Shown one piece after another: positions 2,633 to 27,191 of a stretch of DNA of 27,191 bases (positions are counted from its first letter, which is position 1; every line of letters begins with the position of its first letter). This stretch comes from a virus. The stretch covers positions 1 to 27,191 of the IMG/VR virus record IMGVR_UViG_3300042691_026272, one strand, 5' to 3'. Under the pieces are notes generated by a model. The model did not search any database and was not told where the DNA came from. It saw nothing but the letters and a program-made list of their open reading frames with translations. Made by a program: the position numbers and the translations under genes.

Positions 2633-2797
2633 TTAGTCATGCTCCTTGTGCATTGCGGCGATTTCTCTCGCCATCGAATTGAGTTCATCAAGCACTGCTT
2701 TCCGAATCTCTGGAGTTACTATACCAGACTCCTCAAGCCGTGTCAAGAGTCTTTTTATGTATTTTTTGTTGATCTTACTGATTTTTAAAGAGTCCAT
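2633..2797 (-). CDS. Small helical hypothetical protein, 54 aa
   Basis: A 54-residue protein starting MDSLKISK and ending AAMHKEHD. It is highly charged and predicted helical, with a pattern suggesting two helices (KKYIKRLLTRLEES, then PEIRKAVLDELNSMAREI) joined at a Pro. Its start overlaps the end of the glycosyltransferase gene by 23 nt and its end just touches the ssb-like gene, so it sits in a coupled run of genes. GGAG lies 7 nt before the ATG at 2797. A longer version starting at 2824 lacks this signal. The shape suits a small DNA-, RNA- or protein-binding adaptor, but I do not recognise a family. Confidence 0.6.
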   Translation of the reverse strand: MDSLKISKINKKYIKRLLTRLEESGIVTPEIRKAVLDELNSMAREIAAMHKEHD

Positions 2798-3971
2798 CGA
2801 TAATCTCCACGAACTGACTTCCAATATTCTTCCATGAGAATTTTGCGCTACGCATATGCTCTAATGATTTTTGGCCGAGTTCATTACGCTTTTCTTGATT
2901 TGTGTACATGTAGTGAAGCGCTTGAATCGCGCTTTCCATTTCTGTTACATGATGAATTGTGTTTAATCCGCGATCTGTAAGTTGAGGGAAGGGATAGCAG
3001 TCCATGTACACCGCATTACCTTCGGGCCACTCACTCAAAGCTGAGTGGTTTGGAATAATTGCCGGCTTTCCTGCAGCCATTGCTTCTGCCACTGGTAAAC
3101 ACCAACCCTCTGCCGCCGTAGTTGTGAAAAAAACATCGGCATTATTATATACCATGTTTAGTTGCTGCGGAGTCAGGCCCTTTGCAGCTGTGATATTCGG
3201 TGATGAAATTACCAGACGATCCTCGATACCTAAATACTCACACCACTGAATTATATCAATACCGAAATCCTGCAAAGCACCGTGATAGTAGATCTTTACA
3301 CCCTTAGATAAATTGTATCGCTTTACCCATTCAGAAAAATAATAAAACGTTAAATCAAGTCTTTTACGTGGTTGATTACGCTGCAAACACAAAACAATAT
3401 AGTCTGTATCTTTTAGATTCATTTGTTGACGCAAAACCGCACGCGGCACGTCAATGGGGTGAAACATCGTAGTATCTACTCCGTGTGGAACTACAAAGAC
3501 ATCAGAAACGTCTACTTTTGCCAGCTGCTCTTTACCGAAATTAGTGTATGTAGCTACAGCATCAAATTTCTGAAGCCCTTGTGCAAAATCCTTTTTAACA
3601 TTCTCTGCATCAATTGGGGTGTACAAAACAGTTTTAAACTGTTGATCCTTAATTTGCGAAAGAACAGCAATGTAGTCGTTAGCAATCCAAGAGTCATTCA
3701 ATATGAAAATAACATCCGGTCGAATTGATCGCACCATACTTTCAAGACGTTCCTTACCCCAAACGTCCCCACCACCAAGAGAAGCCGGGTACACTTTAAG
3801 TCCTTCGCACAGTGGGTCATAGTCACCGTAATAGTTCACACCCATAATGTGTAAATCATATTTTTTACGGAACGTTTCAATCAAATTCTTACTGACAACT
3901 CCGAAACCAGTTTGCACTGGAAAATCCCCGATGTACAGCATCTTTTTCTGTACTGGTACAATTCTTCCCAT
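2775..3971 (-). CDS. GT4-type glycosyltransferase (GT-B fold)
   Basis: A 398-residue enzyme likely to transfer a sugar from a nucleotide-sugar donor. The N-terminal Rossmann half begins KKMLYIGDFPVQTGFGVVSKNL, with a Gly-rich acceptor-side loop. The linker carries PHGVDTTMFHP (about 162-172). The donor half has the LQRNQPRKRLD segment (about 196-206) and ends in the retaining GT4 signature E288-G-W-C-L-P-V-A-E296 (EX7E), followed by AMAAGKPAIIPN. Length and motif order are normal for the family. The start at 3971 is chosen because AAGGAG (3977-3982) lies 5 nt upstream and overlaps the previous stop codon. The longer frame to 4007 lacks such a site. Position next to structural genes suggests it modifies virion proteins, phage DNA bases or a host surface glycan; the sequence does not say which. 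It belongs to the unit started by the promoter at 4578-4606. Confidence 0.9.
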   Translation of the reverse strand: MGRIVPVQKKMLYIGDFPVQTGFGVVSKNLIETFRKKYDLHIMGVNYYGDYDPLCEGLKVYPASLGGGDVWGKERLESMVRSIRPDVIFILNDSWIANDYIAVLSQIKDQQFKTVLYTPIDAENVKKDFAQGLQKFDAVATYTNFGKEQLAKVDVSDVFVVPHGVDTTMFHPIDVPRAVLRQQMNLKDTDYIVLCLQRNQPRKRLDLTFYYFSEWVKRYNLSKGVKIYYHGALQDFGIDIIQWCEYLGIEDRLVISSPNITAAKGLTPQQLNMVYNNADVFFTTTAAEGWCLPVAEAMAAGKPAIIPNHSALSEWPEGNAVYMDCYPFPQLTDRGLNTIHHVTEMESAIQALHYMYTNQEKRNELGQKSLEHMRSAKFSWKNIGSQFVEIIDGLFKNQ

Positions 3972-3981
3972 AAGAACTCCT

Positions 3982-4566
3982 TTAATAGTACTTAGTCCCT
4001 GTAACAATATTTACGGGCTGTCTTGTCGATTTCGGCACCGCAATTTTTGTTTTAAACAGGTAATTTATTTCCTCTAGCAACGCGTCGAGAACGACTTTCA
4101 TTGCTCTAGAAGACTCAGTATTTGTGTATTTTAAATCTTCTGTTGACCATGAAACGAAAGTAGTTGAGCTACTTGTAATCTTAGCCAAATGAATTAAATA
4201 CACAGCCATTAATACAATGGCATCCTCATCAATCTGCTCAATTACTGGGGGATCCGGCTGATCAAAATCTAAAAATGGATTTCTATAAACATCGTTTACA
4301 TTAAATGATGAACTTATAAATGCATACCCATTAACTGTGCTTACCCACAGTTGACCGGACTCAGCAGCCCCCTGAGGTTGTAAGTCTGCAATTGCATCCG
4401 CAGTAAGTATCTGGTACTTTGCCCTCCATCGCTTTTGCAGTTGCTTCACAGAGTTTACTAACGATGTACGCACCAGCGCACTAGAAAATGCCGTACCACT
4501 AAAATCACCCAAGCGTATTCGCACTGAGTCGATTAGATAATCAAGATTACCACTTGTTGTTATCAT
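3982..4566 (-). CDS. Putative virion neck / head-tail adaptor protein
   Basis: A 194-residue protein. The N-terminal third (SGNLDYLIDSVRIRLGDFSG, then VRTSLVNSVKQLQKRWRAKY) is a helical pattern seen in phage head-tail adaptor-type proteins. The C-terminal half has PPVIEQIDEDAIVLMAVYLI followed by VSWSTEDLKYTNTESSRAMK, also typical of uncharacterised virion proteins of tailed phages. I infer a structural, connector-like role. The match is from memory of family patterns and is not decisive. The ATG at 4566 is preferred over the GTG at 4572 because AGGAG then lies 5 nt upstream; the GTG overlaps that site. The gene is first in the unit driven by the consensus promoter at 4578-4606. Its start is so close to the -10 box that a transcript from there would be nearly leaderless. 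Standing after the tail genes rather than between head and tail genes would be unusual for an adaptor. Confidence 0.5.
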   Translation of the reverse strand: MITTSGNLDYLIDSVRIRLGDFSGTAFSSALVRTSLVNSVKQLQKRWRAKYQILTADAIADLQPQGAAESGQLWVSTVNGYAFISSSFNVNDVYRNPFLDFDQPDPPVIEQIDEDAIVLMAVYLIHLAKITSSSTTFVSWSTEDLKYTNTESSRAMKVVLDALLEEINYLFKTKIAVPKSTRQPVNIVTGTKYY

Positions 4567-13776: not shown

Positions 13777-16700
13777 TTATGGCTCAACACCTTGATCCGG
13801 TTTCATTGGGTCTCTACCGTTTCCGGTGACTGTTGTAGTCGTAGTAACCACAGGTGCAATAGTACTAGCGTCTCTTACTATTACGCGTAAATAGTTTTTA
13901 CCGTCAGCACCCACTTCACCGTACGCACCTAACGAAGATGGACCCATAGTTAGGTCGTCACCTTTCATTCCGTCAGCTGTCATACTATTAACACCGGAAT
14001 TTAGACTACGAACCATTTCTTCGTATTCGTTACTTCCTTTTGTATACAACGAACCTGCCAGCTGCATATCTGCATATTTCTGTAATGATTGAGCTGATTC
14101 AGTATAACCTCGATTGTAGTATGCCTCGGCTCTTAAAGACATTCGTTGGTACGCAGTAATTGCAGTAAGTGCTTTCGCAAACTCCGCTGGAACTGCTTGA
14201 GAAATTTCTGTAGCAGCTTCGGTGAATTGACGAACCATATCTTCTTTGGCATTTTTAAAACCTCTATACGCATCTTCTAGATTCCGTGCGTATGTGATAT
14301 CGAAGTCTTCAAGATCTTTTCTTAAACCCGAAATAGTACTCTGAGAACTTTCGAGAATTTGTTTTCCAGCTTCTCGCCAGTTATCAGCCCATAACGGTGC
14401 AGTGATTGTTACAGAATCCATCTCACGCGCATTTTGCGCGAGTGCCTCACTGTTTTTTTCTAGTGAAACGCGATTCTCTTCAAGTGCATCATTTGCAGCT
14501 TGTATTTCCTCAGGAGTCCTTGCCTCAGCTAATCGTTTTTGTAATGCGGGAGCTTGTTGTTCTAATCTGGTCCGTTCTCGTTCAAGGTCACCACGATTTC
14601 GTGTAAGCTGCTGACGTTTACTTGCAAACTCTAGTTGTTGATTTGCCATATCATCAACGTACTTTCGATACTGAGCACCACGATCATAATTCTCAGATAA
14701 GTAACCCAACTGCATCTGTGCGGCTGATCTCTCCTTTGGATCTGTTGCATTGTTCATTCGAGCTTCTGCAGCAGATTGACGTGAGTCAATCATACCTTTG
14801 ACTTTTTGCCACGCTGCTTCCTTTGCTGTGTAATCAGTCCACGGGACTGCCTCATATTCAGCATAGGCCGCTTGTAATTCTGTATCTTGCATACCTTCAG
14901 GTGTTTTCAAGTAACCCGCAACGTCGGCTTGTTCAATATGAGAAGCTTTTTGCTGGCCTTGCTCACGCAGTGCAGTAATTCTATCTTTCTCCGATTGTGG
15001 AATATTGGCTGCAGTGGCATTTGTGTAGAACGATGCAGTACCTGCACGTTTTTGTAATTCGGCCTGCTGTGCTAATTGTACCATATTCCGCGTATAATTG
15101 CGATGAATATCTTCAAGTGTTCGCATACCATTTCGATTTATGTCTTCAATGCTTCTACGATTACTTAAATCAGCATCGCGAAGTTGACGACCAAACTGAA
15201 CATTCCGCTGAACTATCTCGGTGTTTGCTTGAACACCCTGCATTATAACAGAGGCTATAGTAGCAGGATTAAAAAGAGATAACTCCGGTGCTTTCATAAA
15301 ATCTTTCGCAAACCGAAGAGTACCTTGAGGACCTGTTGTATAGCCAAAATTAAACGAACTGCCTACAGGAATTGGGCCGGTTCCCATAGTTGTTGGGCCA
15401 GTAATACCCATTATATTTTGATTTTGTGTAGTAATTCGATTCTGCATTATCGTCTGTAAATTAAATCCGCTCATTTGTTGACTAATATCTAAGAAACCGC
15501 GTGGATTTCCTTGAGACAAGAAAGTTACTATGTTTTCATATTGAACACCTGCACTCCGGAGCGTTTGAATAAAATTATTGTACGTTCCTTTTAATGCTAG
15601 ATTAAACGGGCGAGTTAACTCCTCCTGTTCTCTAAATGCAGTGATCTGTGCTTCAAGTGTTTTAACTGCATTTGCTTGTGCGGTGCGTAATTCCTCTGTT
15701 CCTTTGCGATCATACTTCACACCCTCAACAAAAATAGTTTTTTCCATCGCACGGAGAGACGCAGTTGTTAAGTCCTCGTTAGCGCGGCCGGTCCCCACTT
15801 TATCAAGATTAACCATTGGATTAATCATAGAACGTACAGAATTCATACCGGCAAGAGAATTAAGTGCATTTAAATCAACATACTGTGTAAAGCGCTGCTG
15901 AGAAATTTGAAATTGCTTTTCCATTGCTTGGTCTGTGTATTCTTTTGCAAATCGTTTCCAGCTTGCTTGATTTATTTGGTCGTTTAATTCTTGCGTAATT
16001 CTTTGCTGCTGGCCTACATCTAAATCAATAAACTGTTGATCACTGATAACCTGACTTACTCGCCCACGCGGTATATTATTGGAATAAGCGGTAAAATCAG
16101 AAACAATACCATACTCTTGTGCTGTTTGCAGCAAGCTAGCCGCCTGTGTAGTATTGTATACTTTAGCAGCAAACTGATCATAACTTGATTTATTGTCGTC
16201 AAGCAACTTTCTCGCAGTTTCGTCAGTACCGGTTACATCACGCATAACCAACGTTTGATACATTTGCATTGCCTCAAACACGCTTTTTTGCTGTTTAGTT
16301 AACGGGTCTTGTACAATTAAAGAATAAACTCTTTTTTGATCTTTTGACAAACCGTTGTAATATTTTGTAAGTTCTCTACCAGTGTCAACATAAGTGTTTA
16401 CAAACTCATCTCTAGCCTCTTGTGTATCAGTTCTTAGATTTGTAAGAGCTTGAACACCTGCAATTAGCAAGCGGCTACCAGGAAACATGAAATCACTAAT
16501 AAACCTTTGAGTACCAGCCGTTCTCTGTAACTCTGACTGCCGTTGATCGTCAAGCACTGCTTGCGGGTACATTTTGTTACCTATCTGTTCTGCATTAATT
16601 CGCTGATTTTCCTCACTTTGTAATCGATAAAGTTCGCGATATTTTGCAGAACTAGTATCTCTACTATCTGTAACACCAGCGTATGCTAGATAACCCGCAC

Positions 16701-19700
16701 CTGCTAGTGCTGCAGCGATAATCGCCGGTAACGCTACTGCACCACCTACTGTGCCCGCAGCGGTAGTTGTTGCGGCAGCCCCGAAACCGGGCAATGCTAG
16801 CTGCGTTGCAGAACCAGCTGCTGCACCTAAAGTACCAAATGTGTTTATAAGACTAGCAATTCCTCCGACACCAGCACCAACACCGATACCAGTCAACCCA
16901 GCAGTGCCAAGATACGTATTCATAAAATATCTGCGGCGTACTGCATCTGAAATTTCTGCGTTAGCTCCCAAACCTAATCGAGCTGCATTAGCATTTATTG
17001 CACCTATTCCTGTGTTTGCGGCGTTTCTTTCTAATGCTGATAGAGGAGCAAGTAAAGCTGGATTCATGTTGTTTTCATAATTGTACACCGCAGCATTACC
17101 TGTTGCAATAAGTGCTGTTGCTATGTCTCTACCACCATAACTTAAACTACCTATAAGACGTTGATTTGGATCATACGCACCAGTACTATACAAGGTCGCG
17201 TATCTTCCTTCTTTTCCGGGATCGCCGCGGAACATACCACGAGTAAACGCAGTTGCTTGCTGACCTTCTTTAGTAGTTTTCTCCGGTGCGTCCACACCGG
17301 CAAGACGCACAACTTCCGAACGTCCATCTGGCATTTCAACCTGATAAGTATCAGCATCAAATTGCTTGAGAATTTTAACTCTCTGCCCAGTTTGATTGAA
17401 TTTCATTTGTTGCTCTGACGTTTTAATCATGTCTTCACGCATAGTCGCATTGAAAGCTTTGCCGTAGAATCCTAACGGTTGTCTTTGCGCTTGAAACTCC
17501 TCACCCGTAAAGAAATCTCCGCCGATATCGCGCATCGCTTTTAAGATAGCCTGATCTTGGTTCATCCCCATAAGCACACTAACTTGAGCGCTTTGTTGAA
17601 TACGACGGCGTTCGTCTGCTTTCATATTACCCAATCGACGGTACAGTTCAATATTAGAAACGGCACCGGTTGTTGAAGTAAGATCTAAAGCTGCTGTAGA
17701 AGTAGCGTCGTTCGCCTCTGCTAACATTGGGTCCAGCTGATCAAGAAAATTAGATGAAAATACATTTAAAGTTCTCAGACCTGTATCTGGATTTGACAGC
17801 ACTGTGTCGCCATATGATTTTAATCGTTCATTTACAACTTTTTGTAAATTTTGATCAAAAGACTGACGAGCAAGAAACGATCTATCTCCAAGAATTGGTT
17901 CGAGTATTGGAGTCATTGCGCCTACTGCAAACGCACTAAATTGTACTTGCAATGTTTCCAATCGACCGGTCATGCGGTCATATTTAGTTGCTAATGAATT
18001 TGCTTGGTCATCAATTAATTTATCAGTAACGCCCATCTTAGCCAAAAGTGCGTCAAGTGAATCTAACATCTCGTTAGCGTCACCGGTGTTAATCTTTGAA
18101 AGCTCACTACGATTAATTTCAAATCTTCTACTGAGCGATGACACATTACCAGACAAAAATTCTTTAAGCGCAATACTAGCACCTTGCATACCTTGAGCAG
18201 GATCGAATGCGGCGAGCTTACGCGCAACCTGCACAGACTTACCAACATCTACTCCATACGTATTCGATATAGGAATAAATGAGGTCATGTCCTCAAGATT
18301 ACGAGCGAGCGTTCCACCAAACATAGACTGCTGCCGTGTGGCAGCCGCAAGTGCTTTAGTATACGTTTCCGGACTTAAAGAAAGAGCACGAGCCGTAGTC
18401 ATAATACGGTCTGTGCGAAGTTGTGGGTCGCCTATCTGACCTATAGTTGAGGCAATAGTTTGCGGTAAGTTTAACACGCCCATGACTGTCTGCCCAAGAG
18501 TTTGAAGATCTCTAACACGAGACATTGCGTAAAAAAATGTGTCATTAAACGGTGATTGATTACGAGCTTGCTGTACTCTGGCCATTGAGCGTTGTAAGCG
18601 TTCAATGTCATCAAGTGATATATCTAATCCGCTTTCAGTTTTCACTCTTTGCTGTAAATTTACTAATTGCTGTCGATTAGCGCCCACTAAATTGCGTGCA
18701 CGCCCTCGATCATCGTATGCTACAACCTGATCGCCTCTAAACATTGTATTTATCGCTCTTGTTGCTTCAGGAGATTGACCAAATACACCAGTAAGATAAT
18801 CACGAACGTAGCCTGCGGCCTCACGTTGTACACCGCCAGTTAAACGCCGTAATAAACCGGGTTGACTAACGACTGCTTGTAAGTTTTCTTCAAGATCGCG
18901 AGCATTTTTGGCCGATTGTTTGTCAATCTCTTCCCCAGAACGTTTTTGCTGTGTTTCAGCAAAACCAGTTGCGGTGACTAAATTTAAAATGTCTGCGCGT
19001 GTAAGATCTGTATTATTTGCACCGTCAATAACTTCACCAAGTCTTATAGCGGCCTGAATTACTCGCGAAAGGTCAACTGCCAGTTCCTCAATGGGACGCG
19101 ACTCTAAAGTGTTTGGCTGAACACTTGCCATAGCAGACTGCAAATCTGCAAGTGCCTGATTTGCATTTGCTTCTTTAACAGTGTCCCCCATAAAATCAAC
19201 ACCGGTCAAGTTTACCGGACTAAGTTGATTAAGCATTGTGTTTGCGAAATTACGCGTAGCTCTTGTTAAATCTAGTTGAGACTCATATCGCGAACTCTGC
19301 TGAGGTAAAACTCCTTGAAAAGACGAGTATAAATTTCTTCTACTTTCTAAATCAGACTGTGCTAGCATTTCGGCTTCAGTTACAAGGCGGCCGGTGCGCG
19401 TTCGTACTGTTGGGCCAGTACCAGCTGCGCCTCCGGTAGTCAACCCAGTCGGTTTTATTGCTTGTTGAAATCTATTAAGATCTTCAGTAACTCGTTTTAA
19501 AACGTTTGCAAAAGCGTCAAGTTGTCGATCACTTTCGCTTAATTTTGCTAATTCACTTCTTCTTTGCTTGTCGGTTAGTGTAGGATCTGTCATAATTCGA
19601 TCGCGAGCAAGCACGCTATTTTTTTGATCTTGCAGAACGTTTTCCGTCATCAACGCTAAATTTCTTGCAGGATCGGGACTAGTGGTTAAGTTAGCTAACA

Positions 19701-22700
19701 AAGTTGAAACGCGTGGGTTTGAGTAATCTGGAGAACCGTACAATAATTGAGTTTCTAGTGCTTTTTTCTGTAAGGAAATGTAACGTGCTTTATTTCTTGT
19801 TTCTATTGAACTCCGTGCAGCAGTATCAGGTGCAAGACGTATTGCTAATTTAGTTTCATCGTTTAACAAGTCCATTTGTGAAAATATCATTTCAGTTATG
19901 TCTCTAGTTGCTTTACGTCCTCCACCACTACCCCCAGCGCCTCCACCACTACTCCCAGCGCCTCCACCACTACCGCCAACACCAGAAGCAACAACAACGC
20001 CAGAAGACGGGGGTCCTCCAGTAACGTGAACTGTACCACCAGTTACCGTGATTGTAGCGTTAGGTGCATCTATAGCCGCACCGGGTGCGGTAATACCTCC
20101 AGTAGTAGGCGGTGGTGTAGTTGCGGTTGCCGTTGGAACTGATGTAGGAACAACTGCCAACGGTTGAACAGCGCCAGACGCTCCGGAAAAATTAATCAAA
20201 GAAGTCGTAGAAGTTTTTGGAGTTTTAGCGGTTCTGGGTTTTCTCGGGGTTAGTTGAGCCGGTGTAACATCTATAGAAGAAGGATTTGTAGCGGAAGACC
20301 CACTAAACACTACCAGTGAATTTGCGGAAGGAGCAGCGGCGAGAGTTGTTTTAGATTTACGTGAGCTTCCTCTGACAGATGAACTTATTATTGACTCAGC
20401 GTCGGCTTGTCTAATAGCCGCTTCTTCATCTATTGCATATAATTCTGCTTCTGCTTGCAATTGTTCTTTTTGAATTGCGCTATCTTCCATTAAAGCGTAA
20501 CTTGCTTCAACGTTAGCTGTTTTTTTAACTTTTTCAGCAAGCCTAGCTTCTTCAGCTATTCTTACTGCACGCGCTTCTTTTTGTGCTTCTCGAGTGATTT
20601 GTCTTTTTGCTGTTCTACGTTCAGCTTTTTGAGGTTGACTTGCTTTTGCTTCTCTTGCAGAACGACGATCTCTTGATTTTTGTATTTCTGCTTGTCGACT
20701 ACGATCTGCCTGCTCAATTGATTTTTGTTCTTGTAATTGTTGAGTTGCAGTATCCCCCATTAACAAAGCCTCGTATGCTTCAACACCGGTTAACTTTATA
20801 GCTTGTTTAGCTGATTCCTCTTGTTCGTCAAGAAGTCGCGCCCTTTGATCTTCTTGCTGCGCTAACTTAACTTCTTCAGCAAGTCTAGCTTGTTCTGCAA
20901 GTCTGATTTGCTCTGCTTTTTTTGCTTTTCTCGCTTCTTCTGCTTTCTTAGCTTTTTCAGCTTTCTGAGCTTGCTTAGCTTTTTTAGTTTCTTCCGCTTT
21001 CCTAGCTTTATCAACATCCCTTGTTTCACTGAATTGTGTGGGAGTAGATGTGGCACCTTGTAGACGATTCTTTACAAATTCCGCAAAGTATTCTACATGC
21101 TCTTTTAGATCTGGACCATGGTGTATCGTCGTTTCAGTATACTCACCCATATCAATTCTTTCAAAAAGTCTGCTTCGATAGGCAGCCAAAGATGATTCAG
21201 TATCCGGATCGTCGCTTATTTTTTCACCCGCTAAGAATTTTTTATACGCAGCTAGATCCTCATTGTTCATGAGTCGGGGTGGCACTACGCCTGTCAGTAA
21301 TTGTGTGTTACTAGGATTGACTACTGCCCTGTATTTTTCAGGTCTATTTGGATCGGGAATTCTCCTCAGTTGGTCACGTTGATACCGTGCTTCTTTTGCC
21401 GCAGCCTCTCGACTTTCATGCGGAACTAAAGTAATTTTTGGGGAATCATTTCGCTTTCGTAGCATATATAATCGTTGTTCTTGTCTATCATCTAGAGTAG
21501 GACGCGTGTATCCCGGCGTAGACTCATTAGCCAATATATCAAAAAGCATTGCTTTTTCATCTTCTTCCGCTTTTCTTGCTGCAAGTAACTCTGCTTCTTG
21601 AGCTTGCTGTCTTTCCTCGTATGACCTACTTTTTCTTATCTCCTCCTTTGTTAATGCTACACTAGGTGGTACTGGAGTAGGTACTGGAGTAGGTACTGGA
21701 GTAGATTTGACTATCTTAGCTTCTTCGGCTTTTCTTGCTTTTTCTGCTTTTCTATACTCTTCTTTTTCAGCTTCTTGCGCTTTTCTTGCTCTTGCCTCTT
21801 CAGCAATTTTTGCTCTTGTAGCTTCTTCTACTATTTTTGCTTTTTCTGTTTCTTGAATCGCTTCAGCTTCAATAGCTTTTTGTGTTCTAATATCTTCCTC
21901 GGATAATTCCGCTACTGGGGTTTCAGCGAGCCTTCTATGTAAAGCGGCCTTTTCCTTTCTTTTCTGTTCTGCTTGGTCAGCTAATTCAATTTTTTTACGT
22001 AATTCAGCATCAATTGCTACCACTGGCGTAGCTGGCTCAACGATTACTGCTTTCTTAGTTGAATCCGCTAGTTTGGCTTTTTTTGCTTTTTCGACTTCTC
22101 TAGCTTTTTCATTTTCTACAAATTTTCTCCATTCTTTTGCATTTTTAGCTTGCTCGGATTCTGCTACTTTTTCAGCTTGTTCAATTTTTTGCGTTTCTTC
22201 CATCTTTCTAGATTCATTTGCCGCTTTTGCTTTCATTCTCTGACTTTCGCTGAGCGTAAAAGTTGGCCGATTAGATTTTTGCTGACGTGTTCTAGGTGGG
22301 ACACGTTTCGGGACTGATAACGCAGTTGAAGTCTCCGAAGAGACCGTTGGTTCAGAGGTAGCTACCGCCGGTGATTTACGACGCTCATTTACAAACTCAG
22401 CTAATGCATCGGCGTGAGAAGGTTCTTTTAACTGAGTGTAGTATAAAAGTGTTTGATCATCAAGAACACCTGCATCAATTTGAGAAAGAATCCAATTACG
22501 CTGTTCTTGCTTGACGTCTTGATCAGCTGTACCAGCTAACCACGCTTTGTATCGATCCACTGCTTCTTTTACTGTTTTTACTCGTACCTCACCAGTCTTT
22601 GGACTATGTAAAGTAAAAGGATTACCGTAATGAGCATCACCCACATCCTTCTTACGAAGGGTACTAACACCCTCTCCCCTACTTTCTGCTTCGGCAACCG

Positions 22701-25700
22701 CAGCGGTGCCTTTTAAGTTTTTAACAATAGCTTTAGGTGTCGATCTAACCCCAGAGGATAACAATGCAAAAGCATCTGCCGCAATTTGTCTTATACTAGC
22801 ACCTATATTTCTTTGTTTTCTACCCGATTGGCTATCACCTTTTTGAGTAGACTCCTCGGCAATAGTTACGACTGGATCATATTCCATTAAGTTTTGAACG
22901 TTTTTATCTCGAAAATCTATTAAACGAAGCACTGCTTTGAGATTATCTAACAAACTTTGATTTTCTGCAATTTCGGCACTTTGTTCGGGAAGCTGCATTT
23001 CTAGTGATTGTTGTCTAGACCGATTAACGTCAATGCTTGGTCTGACACCCCGTCGTTGTCGTGGTCTAGCACCCGGCTGTCTACTTGAATTTACTCGACT
23101 TGCTTGAGTTCGTTGGCTTTGTTCGCGAGACTGCCTTTCCCTTTCTCGGTCTCTTTGCCTCATTTCTGCAATTAATTTTTCTTTTTCAGAAAGACTTACG
23201 TCAGAATTAAGGTATTGAAATATTTCTGCTTGAGAAAACTCATCTGGTGTGATAGCGCTCAACGCATCTAATTGCTCTTGCGTATTTTTGATTTGAGAGG
23301 CTTTTTTAACTTTTGCGGCGGCGTCTTGAAATCTTGACGCGTACTGTTCGACTCGTTGTTTTCTAACAGTCTGAGCCATTGACGATGTATCTCTATAGCG
23401 TTCTCGCCCTTTAGTAGTGCGATTTGTCAGCGTGTCTAAAACACCACTTCGTTGAGTATAGTCACTAAAATCTACGTTGTTGTAAAGTGCTACTTCATCA
23501 TCGGATAAGTTAGAAATCCGCGATACAAGCGTCGCGGCACTTTCAATTTTTTCCGGATCATCTAGCATTTTAGAAGCAATCTCTAACAACTGCGGTATTC
23601 CTTTACCTGTCGCAGTAGCGTATCTTGAGTCAGCGGCCATATTTACGATAGTGTTCTTACCTAATCTACGCCGTACATTATTAAGTTCGCGCTGCTCTTC
23701 TGACGTTCTTGTTTTCTTTGCTCTTAGTTCTTTTAATCTGCTTGTTAGAGTTTCAACTTCAGTAGCGGGAAGCGCACCTGCAAGTGCTCTACTAGCTCTC
23801 TGCCTGTCAGCAGCACCGCTGGTCATCGCGTCTTGTTGAGCTCTAACTAATGTTTGTGCGCCTTCACTTAAAGATGAAATTTTCGAGCCTGCTAAATCGC
23901 GCTCTTCATTAAGTGCGATTAGACTTCTTCGTTCTATTAAACTCTGTGCAATTGTTTGTAACTGACGTAGTTCTGTTGGATTTTTTATGTTTTGAGGTAA
24001 TATGTCAGCATAGGGATTCTCGTGTATATTCAACTGATTAATTTGACGATTTACTTCCGCAATTCGTTTGATTAGTTCAGAAGAGTCTTCAGTAGAAAAA
24101 TCATTAACTGCATCAGCTAATGAATTAAGTTCTACAGCAGATTCATACTGATCTTCCCCTAAATCACTTTGAAGCCGACCTATCTTTATTTGACCACTGT
24201 AGACTGTGCCTTGAAATAAATTTTTAGCGTCGGTGCTTACCGGGTTAAACGAGTTCTCCATCATTACTGGATTAAATTGAAAATTAGGTCTTATGTCCAT
24301 ACCGGCAGCACGCTGTTGCACACTACGTCGCTGTAATTCAATGGCTGCTAATTGCTGTGCAGCCGCTACAGCCTCTCTACTTGTGTTATTACCGTCATTT
24401 TGCTGTACTTGACGTTTTAATGCAATATAATTTAAGTATTGAACTGCTCTTGCACGATTGTCACCTTCGAAACCTTCTTCTGAGCCAACAATCCCAGTTT
24501 GTATCCATTTATCTGGATTTGAGCTTCTTATTGCGGCGACTGCTCGAAATATTGCAATTGTCTCTAATGCAGTTTTTTTCTGCAGCTCATCGTCACTCTG
24601 CGCCTGTTTCAGAAGAGACTCTGCATATCTAGCATTACTATCGTACTCCTCATTGTACTTATTTTTTCTCTGAGCAGCACTGATTCCTGTAGTTCTACCT
24701 GCTTCCTTGTCAACAATTTTGCGACCAGCAGCTAACACAGCGTTTAAAGTGGCTTTAGGTTTTGTATCAACACCTAGAGGAGGCATACCTCTAGGCAAAG
24801 TATCAGGAAGTTCCACACCTTTAGCGTATAACTCACGAGTTGTTTGTTGTGCATAGTTTTGAATACCAAGGGCAGCATCTTCAAAATCAGGTACTCCAGC
24901 GATGTCAGTACCAAAGATATAAGTCAACGCTGCATCTACACTTAGCGGTGCGTATTGACCCTCAATAATTTCCCCGGTCTGCGTTCTGGCCGCAACTCCG
25001 AGCATCTGGCCTCTTTGTTCAGGTGTAGTCTGCTCGTTTAAAATAGTATCTATTAATCTTCTTTGTCGTAGTAACTGCTCTGCTTTTTTTCTCGCCGTTT
25101 CGCGTGCTGCTTCAGTGGGGCTATCTTCAGCACGTTGCATGTTCTGAACGGCCTGAAAGTAAAATCCCTCTCGCATACGATTAGCATATAAACGTAGTGC
25201 ATTTTGAGTTGGGGTTATATTTTCCCCTCCAACTTCCTGCTTGACTACCTGCTGCATAAAAGAGTAATCTAAAGCTGAAGTTATAGGCTGATCGGGATTG
25301 TTTAAATACTGATTCAACATAGCAGCAGCGTGTAAATTTACAGTTTCATTTTCTAAAACACTAGGGCCTGCTCCATAAATACCACCATACCCCGAATTGT
25401 CTGTCTGAGCTCGACGACCAACTAATGTTGTATCTTTGCTCATTGCTATCGCAGCTCTTATTGAGTCTTGATAACTATTGTACAATGTTTCTGGAATTCT
25501 CTGCTCTCTACCGTTTATAGTAACAGTTTTAAATCTTCCAGAAACGATGTCCTCATTAACTTGTTCCCGTTGAGATCGTATACGTTCACGCACTAAATCG
25601 GCAACAGGTGTCGTGTACACTGAACCTGCATCATACCCAGTTACTTGTGCACCTTGAGCAAGGTCAATGTCTGTTAAAACAGATCCGTCGTTCCTTGCAG

Positions 25701-27191
25701 TTGTACTCGCACCACCACGTATAGAAGTTCTTAATGATTCACGAGCTAAGTAATTATCGTGTCTTTTTTTACCCGCGGTGGGAGTGCCACCACCTACATT
25801 ACCCGGAGGTCTAAATACATTTGCACCTAATAATGCAAATAACGACTCACCCGTATCATCATCTCGAGCGTTTGGAGATATTCTAAACTCTAGGTCAGCC
25901 GGTAAAGACGTACCTAACATGTCTGAATTATCAACATCTTCAGGGCGCACAACTTGAGCGCGAACTGCTCTATTGATAATGTTACCCAAACGTGGGATAA
26001 GCACCCCCAATTTTTTTACTAATGTTCCGCGACCTATAGAAGCAGTTTGAACTTTACCAGTCGCAGGATCAACGGTTCCTAAACGATCCACAAGATCTTC
26101 CAAAAGATCGAGTATGTACTGATCACTAGCTGCTCCTAAATTTTGCACAGAAGGTGCCTCAGCCATACCTAAATGCTTTAGTGCTGTTTCAATTGCAACT
26201 ACAATTTGGCTCCTTGAGCTTTGCTCTGAAGTAGCAGAAGCATTTTTTGGAAAAAGTTTATTAAAGTTTGCAACTATTTGTCGACTAGTCGATCGATCAG
26301 TAGTGCCAGCGTGATACCTTTGCATACCATCTAGCATAGCATCAGCAGCATCCACAATTTCCTGAGTATGCGTCTCAGTAGAAACACGAAAAATTTCTGG
26401 GTGTTTTAAAACATAATCAACAATCTGTCGAGCTGAATTTACGCCTTTCGGGCGCGCACCTACAGTAGCCTTGTATACAGGAAAGGATGCGCCCGTGTCT
26501 TGCGGGAAAAGTGTTTCAAAATCTGAAACTATCTGCGCGTTAATCTGCCTACCAGCGCCACCTCGTGACGCAACTCTCGCACCCGACATCAAACGATTTA
26601 TTATTTCGATAGTTTCCTTAGTGTATACGTCAGCCGTCGCAGTAAAAAGATCCGGATTTTTAATAACATAATCAACAATTTTTTGAACAGTCTCTGTTTG
26701 GGCAGGACGACTGCCTACGCTACTTCGTAGCGGTGGACGCCCACCTCCTACAAAAGCTACTCCAAGCGGATCTTTATGGTCAACTGGTAGCATTGCTTCG
26801 GCATCAGAGGTGGTATAAGCAGACGAGGCGGATCGAGTAGCTCCTGTTGAACTGTCTCGTTGTTTTTTTCTAGGTCTCTGAGAAGGTGCCGATGTACTAT
26901 CAGTACTCTGAGTAACCGCGGCGGAAAACGCAGCGGCCTGCTCTGTTGCCTCTCTTAACACTTTTATTTGGTTTTGTACTACTGCGTAAATATCTTTGTG
27001 TCTCTGAAGGACTTCTTCTAAGCTACTTAAATAATCCGCCGCATTTTCAGAACTTGCAGCAGCATACTGGGCAATACCCTCTCTACCACCTAATTCTTGA
27101 AATACCGGTGTGATCTGCGGTTTACTTTCCGCTTTTGCATATAATTCTTCAATTGCTTGCGTCATTAACTTTAAGTCTTCTGTCGCTTGGC
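13777..27191 (-). CDS. Giant tape measure protein with SNase and DUF4326-like modules (5' end possibly off window)
   Basis: The frame ends at TAA 13777-13779 and has an ATG at 27165 (4,462 residues, numbering used here). It stays open through the eight codons to the right edge, and no Shine-Dalgarno site precedes that ATG, so the real protein may be longer. The tape measure fixes tail length and enters the host envelope during DNA ejection. Modules: tandem duplication (160-308); helical region to about 1490; DUF4326-like segments (1500-1596 and 1940-2036) within Ala/Lys/Glu-rich helices (1635-2255); Pro/Gly/Thr-rich linker (2260-2416); tape-measure core (about 2870-3090, with KLAAFDPAQGMQGASIALKE and FLSGNVSSLSRRFEI); SNase-like domain (3261-3361); hydrophobic Gly/Ala segment (3413-3495); and a helical C-terminal part with 11-residue periodicity near 4000. 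I read no cysteine anywhere. Tape measure identity is strong from the core, the membrane-like segment, the size and the tail genes that follow. Confidence 0.88.
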   Translation of the reverse strand, partial: QATEDLKLMTQAIEELYAKAESKPQITPVFQELGGREGIAQYAAASSENAADYLSSLEEVLQRHKDIYAVVQNQIKVLREATEQAAAFSAAVTQSTDSTSAPSQRPRKKQRDSSTGATRSASSAYTTSDAEAMLPVDHKDPLGVAFVGGGRPPLRSSVGSRPAQTETVQKIVDYVIKNPDLFTATADVYTKETIEIINRLMSGARVASRGGAGRQINAQIVSDFETLFPQDTGASFPVYKATVGARPKGVNSARQIVDYVLKHPEIFRVSTETHTQEIVDAADAMLDGMQRYHAGTTDRSTSRQIVANFNKLFPKNASATSEQSSRSQIVVAIETALKHLGMAEAPSVQNLGAASDQYILDLLEDLVDRLGTVDPATGKVQTASIGRGTLVKKLGVLIPRLGNIINRAVRAQVVRPEDVDNSDMLGTSLPADLEFRISPNARDDDTGESLFALLGANVFRPPGNVGGGTPTAGKKRHDNYLARESLRTSIRGGASTTARNDGSVLTDIDLAQGAQVTGYDAGSVYTTPVADLVRERIRSQREQVNEDIVSGRFKTVTINGREQRIPETLYNSYQDSIRAAIAMSKDTTLVGRRAQTDNSGYGGIYGAGPSVLENETVNLHAAAMLNQYLNNPDQPITSALDYSFMQQVVKQEVGGENITPTQNALRLYANRMREGFYFQAVQNMQRAEDSPTEAARETARKKAEQLLRQRRLIDTILNEQTTPEQRGQMLGVAARTQTGEIIEGQYAPLSVDAALTYIFGTDIAGVPDFEDAALGIQNYAQQTTRELYAKGVELPDTLPRGMPPLGVDTKPKATLNAVLAAGRKIVDKEAGRTTGISAAQRKNKYNEEYDSNARYAESLLKQAQSDDELQKKTALETIAIFRAVAAIRSSNPDKWIQTGIVGSEEGFEGDNRARAVQYLNYIALKRQVQQNDGNNTSREAVAAAQQLAAIELQRRSVQQRAAGMDIRPNFQFNPVMMENSFNPVSTDAKNLFQGTVYSGQIKIGRLQSDLGEDQYESAVELNSLADAVNDFSTEDSSELIKRIAEVNRQINQLNIHENPYADILPQNIKNPTELRQLQTIAQSLIERRSLIALNEERDLAGSKISSLSEGAQTLVRAQQDAMTSGAADRQRASRALAGALPATEVETLTSRLKELRAKKTRTSEEQRELNNVRRRLGKNTIVNMAADSRYATATGKGIPQLLEIASKMLDDPEKIESAATLVSRISNLSDDEVALYNNVDFSDYTQRSGVLDTLTNRTTKGRERYRDTSSMAQTVRKQRVEQYASRFQDAAAKVKKASQIKNTQEQLDALSAITPDEFSQAEIFQYLNSDVSLSEKEKLIAEMRQRDRERERQSREQSQRTQASRVNSSRQPGARPRQRRGVRPSIDVNRSRQQSLEMQLPEQSAEIAENQSLLDNLKAVLRLIDFRDKNVQNLMEYDPVVTIAEESTQKGDSQSGRKQRNIGASIRQIAADAFALLSSGVRSTPKAIVKNLKGTAAVAEAESRGEGVSTLRKKDVGDAHYGNPFTLHSPKTGEVRVKTVKEAVDRYKAWLAGTADQDVKQEQRNWILSQIDAGVLDDQTLLYYTQLKEPSHADALAEFVNERRKSPAVATSEPTVSSETSTALSVPKRVPPRTRQQKSNRPTFTLSESQRMKAKAANESRKMEETQKIEQAEKVAESEQAKNAKEWRKFVENEKAREVEKAKKAKLADSTKKAVIVEPATPVVAIDAELRKKIELADQAEQKRKEKAALHRRLAETPVAELSEEDIRTQKAIEAEAIQETEKAKIVEEATRAKIAEEARARKAQEAEKEEYRKAEKARKAEEAKIVKSTPVPTPVPTPVPPSVALTKEEIRKSRSYEERQQAQEAELLAARKAEEDEKAMLFDILANESTPGYTRPTLDDRQEQRLYMLRKRNDSPKITLVPHESREAAAKEARYQRDQLRRIPDPNRPEKYRAVVNPSNTQLLTGVVPPRLMNNEDLAAYKKFLAGEKISDDPDTESSLAAYRSRLFERIDMGEYTETTIHHGPDLKEHVEYFAEFVKNRLQGATSTPTQFSETRDVDKARKAEETKKAKQAQKAEKAKKAEEARKAKKAEQIRLAEQARLAEEVKLAQQEDQRARLLDEQEESAKQAIKLTGVEAYEALLMGDTATQQLQEQKSIEQADRSRQAEIQKSRDRRSAREAKASQPQKAERRTAKRQITREAQKEARAVRIAEEARLAEKVKKTANVEASYALMEDSAIQKEQLQAEAELYAIDEEAAIRQADAESIISSSVRGSSRKSKTTLAAAPSANSLVVFSGSSATNPSSIDVTPAQLTPRKPRTAKTPKTSTTSLINFSGASGAVQPLAVVPTSVPTATATTPPPTTGGITAPGAAIDAPNATITVTGGTVHVTGGPPSSGVVVASGVGGSGGGAGSSGGGAGGSGGGRKATRDITEMIFSQMDLLNDETKLAIRLAPDTAARSSIETRNKARYISLQKKALETQLLYGSPDYSNPRVSTLLANLTTSPDPARNLALMTENVLQDQKNSVLARDRIMTDPTLTDKQRRSELAKLSESDRQLDAFANVLKRVTEDLNRFQQAIKPTGLTTGGAAGTGPTVRTRTGRLVTEAEMLAQSDLESRRNLYSSFQGVLPQQSSRYESQLDLTRATRNFANTMLNQLSPVNLTGVDFMGDTVKEANANQALADLQSAMASVQPNTLESRPIEELAVDLSRVIQAAIRLGEVIDGANNTDLTRADILNLVTATGFAETQQKRSGEEIDKQSAKNARDLEENLQAVVSQPGLLRRLTGGVQREAAGYVRDYLTGVFGQSPEATRAINTMFRGDQVVAYDDRGRARNLVGANRQQLVNLQQRVKTESGLDISLDDIERLQRSMARVQQARNQSPFNDTFFYAMSRVRDLQTLGQTVMGVLNLPQTIASTIGQIGDPQLRTDRIMTTARALSLSPETYTKALAAATRQQSMFGGTLARNLEDMTSFIPISNTYGVDVGKSVQVARKLAAFDPAQGMQGASIALKEFLSGNVSSLSRRFEINRSELSKINTGDANEMLDSLDALLAKMGVTDKLIDDQANSLATKYDRMTGRLETLQVQFSAFAVGAMTPILEPILGDRSFLARQSFDQNLQKVVNERLKSYGDTVLSNPDTGLRTLNVFSSNFLDQLDPMLAEANDATSTAALDLTSTTGAVSNIELYRRLGNMKADERRRIQQSAQVSVLMGMNQDQAILKAMRDIGGDFFTGEEFQAQRQPLGFYGKAFNATMREDMIKTSEQQMKFNQTGQRVKILKQFDADTYQVEMPDGRSEVVRLAGVDAPEKTTKEGQQATAFTRGMFRGDPGKEGRYATLYSTGAYDPNQRLIGSLSYGGRDIATALIATGNAAVYNYENNMNPALLAPLSALERNAANTGIGAINANAARLGLGANAEISDAVRRRYFMNTYLGTAGLTGIGVGAGVGGIASLINTFGTLGAAAGSATQLALPGFGAAATTTAAGTVGGAVALPAIIAAALAGAGYLAYAGVTDSRDTSSAKYRELYRLQSEENQRINAEQIGNKMYPQAVLDDQRQSELQRTAGTQRFISDFMFPGSRLLIAGVQALTNLRTDTQEARDEFVNTYVDTGRELTKYYNGLSKDQKRVYSLIVQDPLTKQQKSVFEAMQMYQTLVMRDVTGTDETARKLLDDNKSSYDQFAAKVYNTTQAASLLQTAQEYGIVSDFTAYSNNIPRGRVSQVISDQQFIDLDVGQQQRITQELNDQINQASWKRFAKEYTDQAMEKQFQISQQRFTQYVDLNALNSLAGMNSVRSMINPMVNLDKVGTGRANEDLTTASLRAMEKTIFVEGVKYDRKGTEELRTAQANAVKTLEAQITAFREQEELTRPFNLALKGTYNNFIQTLRSAGVQYENIVTFLSQGNPRGFLDISQQMSGFNLQTIMQNRITTQNQNIMGITGPTTMGTGPIPVGSSFNFGYTTGPQGTLRFAKDFMKAPELSLFNPATIASVIMQGVQANTEIVQRNVQFGRQLRDADLSNRRSIEDINRNGMRTLEDIHRNYTRNMVQLAQQAELQKRAGTASFYTNATAANIPQSEKDRITALREQGQQKASHIEQADVAGYLKTPEGMQDTELQAAYAEYEAVPWTDYTAKEAAWQKVKGMIDSRQSAAEARMNNATDPKERSAAQMQLGYLSENYDRGAQYRKYVDDMANQQLEFASKRQQLTRNRGDLERERTRLEQQAPALQKRLAEARTPEEIQAANDALEENRVSLEKNSEALAQNAREMDSVTITAPLWADNWREAGKQILESSQSTISGLRKDLEDFDITYARNLEDAYRGFKNAKEDMVRQFTEAATEISQAVPAEFAKALTAITAYQRMSLRAEAYYNRGYTESAQSLQKYADMQLAGSLYTKGSNEYEEMVRSLNSGVNSMTADGMKGDDLTMGPSSLGAYGEVGADGKNYLRVIVRDASTIAPVVTTTTTVTGNGRDPMKPDQGVEP
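16680..16925 (-). other. Hydrophobic Gly/Ala-rich membrane-like segment of the tape measure
   Basis: Residues about 3413-3495 are almost free of charge, with runs such as GLTGIGVGAGVGGIASLI and GGAVALPAIIAAALAGAGYL. That is enough for two or three membrane-spanning helices. Such segments are usual in tape measure proteins, which insert in the host membrane on ejection. It lies about 50 residues after the SNase-like domain. Confidence 0.8.
17083..17385 (-). other. Staphylococcal-nuclease-like (SNase/TNase) domain inside the tape measure
   Basis: Residues 3261-3361 align with the SNase fold. KQFDADTYQV gives Asp3270 and Asp3272 for the metal-site pair (Asp19 and Asp21 in the Staphylococcus enzyme). 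VVRLAGVDAPE gives Arg3287, Asp3292 and Glu3295 (Arg35, Asp40, Glu43). YDPNQRLIGSL gives Arg3336 (Arg87), and the domain closes with ALIATGNAAVY. Spacing from Arg35 to Asp40 and Glu43 is identical. Thr41 is Ala3293. All main catalytic residues are kept, so activity is plausible. Confidence 0.85.
19919..19981 (-). repeat. Three 21-bp tandem repeats coding a Gly/Ser linker
   Basis: Three units starting CCTCCACCACTAC follow each other without gaps and differ at one to three positions. They encode GGSGGGAGSSGGGAGGSGGG (residues about 2397-2416), a flexible linker directly before the tape-measure-type C-terminal half of the giant protein. Confidence 0.92.
21058..21348 (-). other. Diverged second DUF4326-like segment (inside giant protein)
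   Basis: Residues 1940-2036 echo copy 1: NPSN where copy 1 has GNPF, LAAYKKFLAG against VDRYKAWLAG, FERIDMGEYTETT against LSQIDAGVLDDQT, and EHVEYFAEFVKNRL against SHADALAEFVNERR. It looks like an old internal duplication of the first module, more degenerate and also free of cysteine. Confidence 0.45.
21671..21706 (-). repeat. Three 12-bp tandem repeats coding TPVP units
   Basis: ACTGGAGTAGGT occurs twice in tandem on the plus strand, followed by ACTGGAGTAGAT. The minus strand encodes STPVPTPVPTPV, a stiff Pro-rich hinge between two charged helical stretches of the giant protein. Confidence 0.9.
22378..22668 (-). other. DUF4326-like domain, cysteine-free, copy 1 (inside giant protein)
   Basis: Residues 1500-1596 contain LRKKDVGDAHYGNPF (1503-1517), a helix AVDRYKAWLAG, QRNWILSQI and a closing EPSHADALAEFVNERR (1581-1596). 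GNPF, the YxxWL helix and the HAD-L-E-N ending follow the DUF4326 pattern. In typical members the closing part carries a C-W-C and a C-H; here it reads LLYY and SHA, without cysteine. The function of DUF4326 is not established. Confidence 0.6.
26242..26688 (-). repeat. Tandem duplicated 63-residue module in the giant protein's N-terminus
   Basis: Residues 160-222 and 246-308 are two copies of one module. They share QKIVDYVIKNPDLF / RQIVDYVLKHPEIF at the start, a central helix, and QIVSDFETLFPQ / QIVANFNKLFPK at the end. DNA likeness is still visible (AACATAATCAACAAT in both on the plus strand). I do not recognise the fold, which looks helical. Confidence 0.85.

Follow-up and report, generated by a model that had tools for sequence, protein, structure and literature searches.

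A predicted staphylococcal-nuclease-type domain with an intact active site as a conserved part of the tape measure protein in a group of uncultivated phages

The tape measure protein (TMP) of an uncultivated phage carries, at residues ~3261–3390, a segment that sequence comparison and structure prediction confirm as a genuine staphylococcal-nuclease-type (SNase) domain with an intact active site; its nuclease activity is inferred. Beyond the original prediction of such a domain, the analysis adds that the SNase is present in every relative found, that it is under purifying selection, that it lies next to the only strongly hydrophobic segment of the protein and that it forms part of an exchangeable cassette. 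With an intact SNase in the ruler protein, which fills the tail and is expected to go into the cell immediately before the viral DNA, the particles of these long-tailed phages may bring an enzyme that cuts DNA or RNA to the site of entry; both activity and delivery are inferences. TMPs are known to carry wall-degrading enzymes; no wall-degrading domain was found in a Pfam scan of domain-sized pieces of the TMP described here.

The window, that is the whole stretch of DNA analyzed, is a virus record of 27,191 bases and represents a fragment of an uncultivated phage genome. Identification of its giant minus-strand open reading frame (ORF) as a TMP is supported by homology to TMPs and by the place of the corresponding gene in the tail operon of a 79 kb relative, G005, while presence in the virion and a role in setting tail length are inferred. 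Residues 2860–3110 matched annotated TMPs in tblastn searches, with an E value of 3e-12 for the deep-sea thermophilic phage D6E and further matches to Brevibacillus phages, and the profile of the TMP family scored 71 bits with D6E, 49 bits with Abouo and 45 bits with Jimmer1. The TMP context originally proposed for the nuclease domain is thus borne out by a core homologous to annotated TMPs. In G005, the TMP gene is preceded by matches to a head–tail adaptor and, weakly, to a tail-assembly chaperone, and large distal genes come after it; in the window, the TMP gene is followed by large genes and by genes for tail-fibre assembly, for a glycosyltransferase, for a primase and for a DnaB-type helicase. 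On the question of an immunity protein or adaptor, a 138-aa ORF downstream of the TMP and its neighbors gave no informative match. In a longer, near-identical contig the TMP comprises 4476 aa, starts MADEIRQATEDLK and is preceded by a GGAGG-type site, from which it follows that the window ends just inside the TMP gene and that the true start lies beyond the window end. Residue numbering starts here at the minus-strand ATG at 27165, and the features discussed below are collected in Table 1.

Table 1 Coordinates of the TMP gene and of the features within it, with the basis of each assignment
Feature	Position in window	Strand	Basis
TMP ORF	13777..27165	(-)	4462 aa within window; core matches annotated TMPs
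Conserved TMP core, aa 2860-3110 (AAFDPAQGM..ALKEFLSGNVSSLSRRFEI)	17836..18588	(-)	tblastn to TMPs of D6E and Brevibacillus phages; profile 71/49/45 bits
SNase domain, aa ~3255-3390	16996..17403	(-)	PF00565, PHROG 452, PDB, AlphaFold2 and Foldseek
First Ca2+-site motif DxDT (D3270, D3272, T3273)	17347..17358	(-)	invariant in 11 copies
Catalytic Arg R3287, Ca2+ Asp D3292 and general-base Glu E3295 (SNase R35, D40, E43)	17281..17307	(-)	invariant in 11 copies
Second catalytic Arg R3336 (SNase R87)	17158..17160	(-)	invariant in 11 copies
Gly/Ala-rich hydrophobic segment, aa ~3405-3500	16666..16953	(-)	hydropathy; low model confidence

The SNase profile PF00565 scored 35.2 bits (E 3.2e-10) in the genome search and 32–34.5 bits with domain-sized pieces of the protein, against a cut-off of 21; a Pfam scan with the entire 4462-aa ORF as a single query missed the SNase, which is recovered with the domain-sized pieces. 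The domain also gave an endonuclease match to PHROG 452 (E 1.7e-8) and, with phmmer, matches to PDB thermonucleases (E 4e-5) in which the active-site residues are in register. In an AlphaFold2 model built from an alignment of the window and its relatives, pLDDT values were mostly 82–93 across the core of the domain, which is predicted to adopt an OB-type SNase fold; when the model was submitted to Foldseek, staphylococcal nuclease was the best match (E 2e-8, TM up to 0.85 by target length). Equivalents of D19, D21, T22, R35, D40, E43 and R87 of staphylococcal nuclease are all present in the window copy. The original prediction had placed the core of the domain at 17083–17385 (TMP aa 3261–3361) and had named D3270, D3272, R3287, D3292, E3295 and R3336 as its SNase motif residues; all six were found where they had been said to lie and T3273 fits as well. 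It had also listed what would refute it, and none of this arose: a profile hit is present, an OB-type fold is predicted and the catalytic residues are in register.

Scans of IMG/VR with the TMP core retrieved 15 contigs. Three have nearly the same sequence as the window; in the others, core identity ranges from 89% down to 54%. The SNase occupies the same place in the TMP in all 15 contigs that share the core, and the SNase-bearing TMPs are about 4,000–6,500 aa long; two extra fragments, L068 and L069, came from a scan with the SNase. Pfam did not find the copies in L030 and L031 and scored that in L029 below its cut-off; for four copies (these and kin) the SNase call rests on conserved motifs and alignment. 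No SNase was found in the short TMPs that share the core (D6E, Abouo and Jimmer1), in the records of the Thermus phages P74-26 and P23-45, which have long TMPs, or in MaeS and a Nodularia phage, and a search of 84,980 bacterial and archaeal genomes gave no match to the TMP core. When 50,697 phage records were searched by tblastn, a weak tool for surveying TMPs, neither the window SNase nor the L013 copy gave any match. With the L028 and L012 copies, the matches were to nucleases that stand alone, in staphylococcal phages, in cyanophages and in a few others; none of the matches listed (60 for each copy) was an annotated TMP. Four of the matched loci were inspected, two being small separate genes and two lying in unannotated records.

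The SNase is directly N-terminal to the only strongly hydrophobic segment of the TMP, which is a prediction from hydropathy in a region where the AlphaFold2 model is unreliable. At a threshold of mean hydropathy at least 1.6 over 19 residues, only the stretches starting from aa 3422 and 3476 qualify among the 4462 residues of the window TMP; they lie in its C-terminal part, where a TMP is expected to have a hydrophobic segment. In the window and nine of the ten relatives scored, the only stretches of this kind begin 143–242 residues after the DxDT motif of the SNase; no stretch in L028 reaches 1.6. The membrane-like segment had been predicted to follow the nuclease core by about 50 residues, which agrees well with a first hydrophobic stretch ~60 residues past aa 3361. 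Glycine accounts for 12–19% of the hydrophobic region versus 6–9% overall.

The reading that we favor, as probable although well short of established, is that a catalytically intact, probably Ca2+-dependent SNase is a fixed part of the TMP, is released where the phage enters as ejection proceeds and cuts nucleic acid there; activity, delivery, topology, target and off-switch are all inferred. SNases require Ca2+, which is abundant outside the cell and in the periplasm and scarce in the cytoplasm. Inside the virion, the domain would sit in the lumen of the tail, well away from the genome, where it would probably be incompletely folded or lack metal. On ejection, the TMP would exit C-terminus first, with its last ~1,000 residues and the hydrophobic segment in the lead and the Gly/Ala-rich segment entering a host membrane. 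Next would come the SNase, freed at the entry pore with over 3,200 N-terminal residues still attached to it; only then would the DNA follow. Exit in this direction would put the SNase on the outer (periplasmic) side unless it were pulled through; its activity would be confined to that face of the entry site, with none in the virion or the cytoplasm. Its possible targets would be, in order, nucleic acid in the envelope (including the entering DNA of another phage), host DNA or RNA, and extracellular DNA; envelope nucleic acid is slightly favored over the host chromosome because the SNase would stay outside, where Ca2+ is high. Published work on other phages supplies a background: the C-terminal muralytic part of the T5 TMP is thought to be expelled first, the hydrophobic segment then being proposed as a channel, and the opened tube is about 40 Å wide (PMC10038345), while the lambda TMP meets inner-membrane proteins during injection (PMC13190303). 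Against our reading, a folded SNase may not fit a lumen of ~40 Å (the T5 value) that is shared by several TMP copies, and the phage's own DNA could be cut by a nuclease let loose where that DNA enters; the reading also stands without activity data, a cultured phage or a known host. If the domain is active, an enzyme acting on nucleic acid would reach the point of entry with the particle before the phage genome does; one could then test directly whether virions interfere with nucleic acid of the host or of rivals, and would have to ask how the phage spares its own DNA.

A different fate for the same domain would be entry into the cytoplasm together with the TMP, where it would attack the host chromosome or RNA early, like a type VI secretion system (T6SS) or bacteriocin effector, with the Gly/Ala-rich segment as translocator. 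This we consider unlikely, without being able to set it aside. The nuclease adjoins a glycine-rich membrane segment, as it does in the T6SS DNase effector Tde1, which is delivered by a tail-like machine and whose glycine-zipper segment resembles the C-terminal parts of TMPs (PMC10240207). Tde1 differs in its Ntox15 nuclease, in the order of its parts and in being a bacterial weapon with an immunity protein. Moreover, glycine-zipper motifs in the hydrophobic region of the TMPs were not above what composition predicts in most copies, the inferred direction of exit would leave the domain outside unless it were pulled through, free Ca2+ in the cytoplasm is low for an SNase (judging from what is known of the family), and the phage's own DNA would be exposed.

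The pattern of conservation bears on a further alternative, that the SNase is kept for binding and not for cutting, to hold or guide the incoming DNA end or to aid tail assembly. SNase folds can bind nucleic acid without cutting it, and the domain is located on the path of the DNA. However, in an alignment of 11 copies that are as little as 18% identical to the window copy, nine columns show no variation (D3270, D3272, T3273, R3287, D3292, A3293, E3295, R3336 and G3356), and seven of these are catalytic or Ca2+ positions (chance P about 2e-9, given 101 gap-free columns). The catalytic Glu, both catalytic Arg and the Ca2+ Asp have remained fixed while the rest of the domain diverged, and short TMPs with the same core manage without an SNase. 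A pure DNA-binding guide, one of the options raised by the original prediction, appears weakened by the alignment because the conserved positions are exactly the catalytic residues, and a binding role is in our judgment improbable. The other options that it raised, a nuclease acting in the envelope or the cytoplasm or against competing phages and restrained in the virion by its need for Ca2+ or by burial, stay hypothetical.

Only slight credence can be given to action outside the cell on DNA or a DNA-rich matrix, comparable to that of depolymerases on capsules. Ca2+ is plentiful outside and stand-alone SNases are, as a family, often secreted, but a domain that lies ~1,100 residues deep from the C-terminus of the TMP would be unexposed before ejection, and surface-clearing enzymes are usually on fibres or the tail tip.

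Identities of the core and of the SNase correlate across pairs of TMPs (Mantel r 0.86, p 1e-4), indicating that the SNase has mostly travelled with its own TMP. The domain is under purifying selection, with dN/dS of about 0.1–0.3: the value is 0.11 between the SNases of the window and G005 (dS near saturation) and 0.2–0.3 between G005 and G004 for the stretch that comprises the SNase and the hydrophobic segment. The TMPs of G005 and G004 are mostly 95–100% identical on either side of this stretch, which is itself about 36–70% identical, and dS is 1.1–1.4 within it versus 0.08–0.18 in the outer flanks, the rise beginning from aa 3001. The same pattern of a divergent island was observed between G007 and G008. 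In the coordinates of the TMPs, the fast-diverging island of SNase and hydrophobic segment, with its jump in dS between near-identical stretches, lies at aa ~3420–4100 of L035 when compared with L011 and at aa ~3660–4600 of L041 when compared with L015. On these comparisons, the SNase and hydrophobic segment apparently form a cassette exchanged by homologous recombination, which explains the data better than positive selection does; positive selection on the SNase was rejected because dN/dS is below 1 and dS jumps in the cassette. An intein or homing element was likewise rejected, there being no such domain and the position being fixed. Stand-alone SNase genes are common in phages, and a small separate gene can be taken as the usual form since 71 of 79 IMG/VR loci retrieved with the SNase profile are in ORFs of at most 350 aa, but the survey contradicts a chance fusion, an assembly error or a functionless selfish insertion, none of which is credible given that 15 contigs share the fusion at one and the same position, that core and SNase diverge in a correlated way and that selection is purifying.

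It is conceivable, and we advance it only tentatively, that this clade of uncultivated long-tailed phages uses its TMP to carry a nuclease into the envelope or the interior of the host cell, as a permanent component of the particle whose targets are competing or host nucleic acid, and that the cassette is exchanged because it faces countermeasures of the host or of rivals.

The domain shares its profile, fold and catalytic and Ca2+ residues with staphylococcal nuclease and the SNase family (PF00565), including the SNases of staphylococcal phages and cyanophages. The family members of phages are small separate proteins, whereas here the domain is set inside a TMP of about 4,000–6,500 aa. T5 pb2 (muralytic) and the TMPs of Thermus phages P74-26 and P23-45 (metallopeptidase) are likewise very long and combine an enzyme, embedded or at one end, with a hydrophobic segment; the substrate of these enzymes is peptidoglycan or protein. 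No published description of an SNase in a TMP was found in the open-licence literature, covered mostly by title and abstract, and within that scope the original remark that no well-described TMP has a thermonuclease domain still holds. The nearest precedent is the baseplate-hub protein of BtI1, a homolog of T4 gp27 with an N-terminal domain related to staphylococcal nuclease, the purpose of which its authors could not explain (PMC2147016). The two cases are alike in that an SNase-related domain is fused to a virion protein, in BtI1 at the tail tip; they differ in that the BtI1 protein is a hub protein and not a TMP, and that its domain is an annotation in one element for which no test of active-site conservation is reported in the portion available. 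In SNIPE, too, a nuclease is stationed at the membrane where the genome is injected, and there it contacts the TMP (PMC13190303). SNIPE is host-encoded and anti-phage, whereas the nuclease described here is part of the phage's own TMP and would be its mirror image, at the same spot with the opposite purpose.

Foldseek searches of BFVD also listed A0A6J5NQ80 (1342 aa) and other large viral proteins of unassigned nature, parts of which are SNase-like. In addition, an unrelated phage protein of 1253 aa (L121:1146-4907), encoded one gene upstream of a terminase-like gene, has a strong SNase domain (79 bits) and an IDIETLG stretch that resembles, by eye only, a DnaQ-type exonuclease motif. On the basis of these large proteins, fusion of nucleases to large phage proteins may extend beyond the present clade.

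Several further features of the TMP and its genomes were noted. A DUF4326-like stretch lies within the TMP at 22477-22638 (-), aa ~1510-1563, where PF14216 scores 18.9 bits and stays under its threshold of 25; a second, weaker copy (36% over 80 aa) is present at 21073-21264 (-), aa ~1968-2031. The GNPF motif of this stretch is present in G005 and absent from the other TMPs inspected, so that the stretch, unlike the SNase, is optional. The N-terminal half of the TMP also contains long low-complexity stretches rich in Ala, Glu, Lys and Arg (20700-22100 (-), aa ~1700-2200). A G005 protein with a weak major-head-protein match (L034:6650-7594) resembles a protein of the Microcystis phage MaeS only distantly (24%), which is a slight hint, from sequence similarity, of lineage or host. 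For the ribonucleotide reductase of G005 (L034:67-2232), the nearest counterparts (~40%) belong to Thermus phages P23-45 and P74-26, whose genomes measure about 83 kb and whose TMPs are also long, at about 5,000 aa. Finally, the glycosyltransferase gene of the window (2775-4007 (-); phrog_2170, E 2.7e-44) is situated between the tail genes and the primase and helicase genes.
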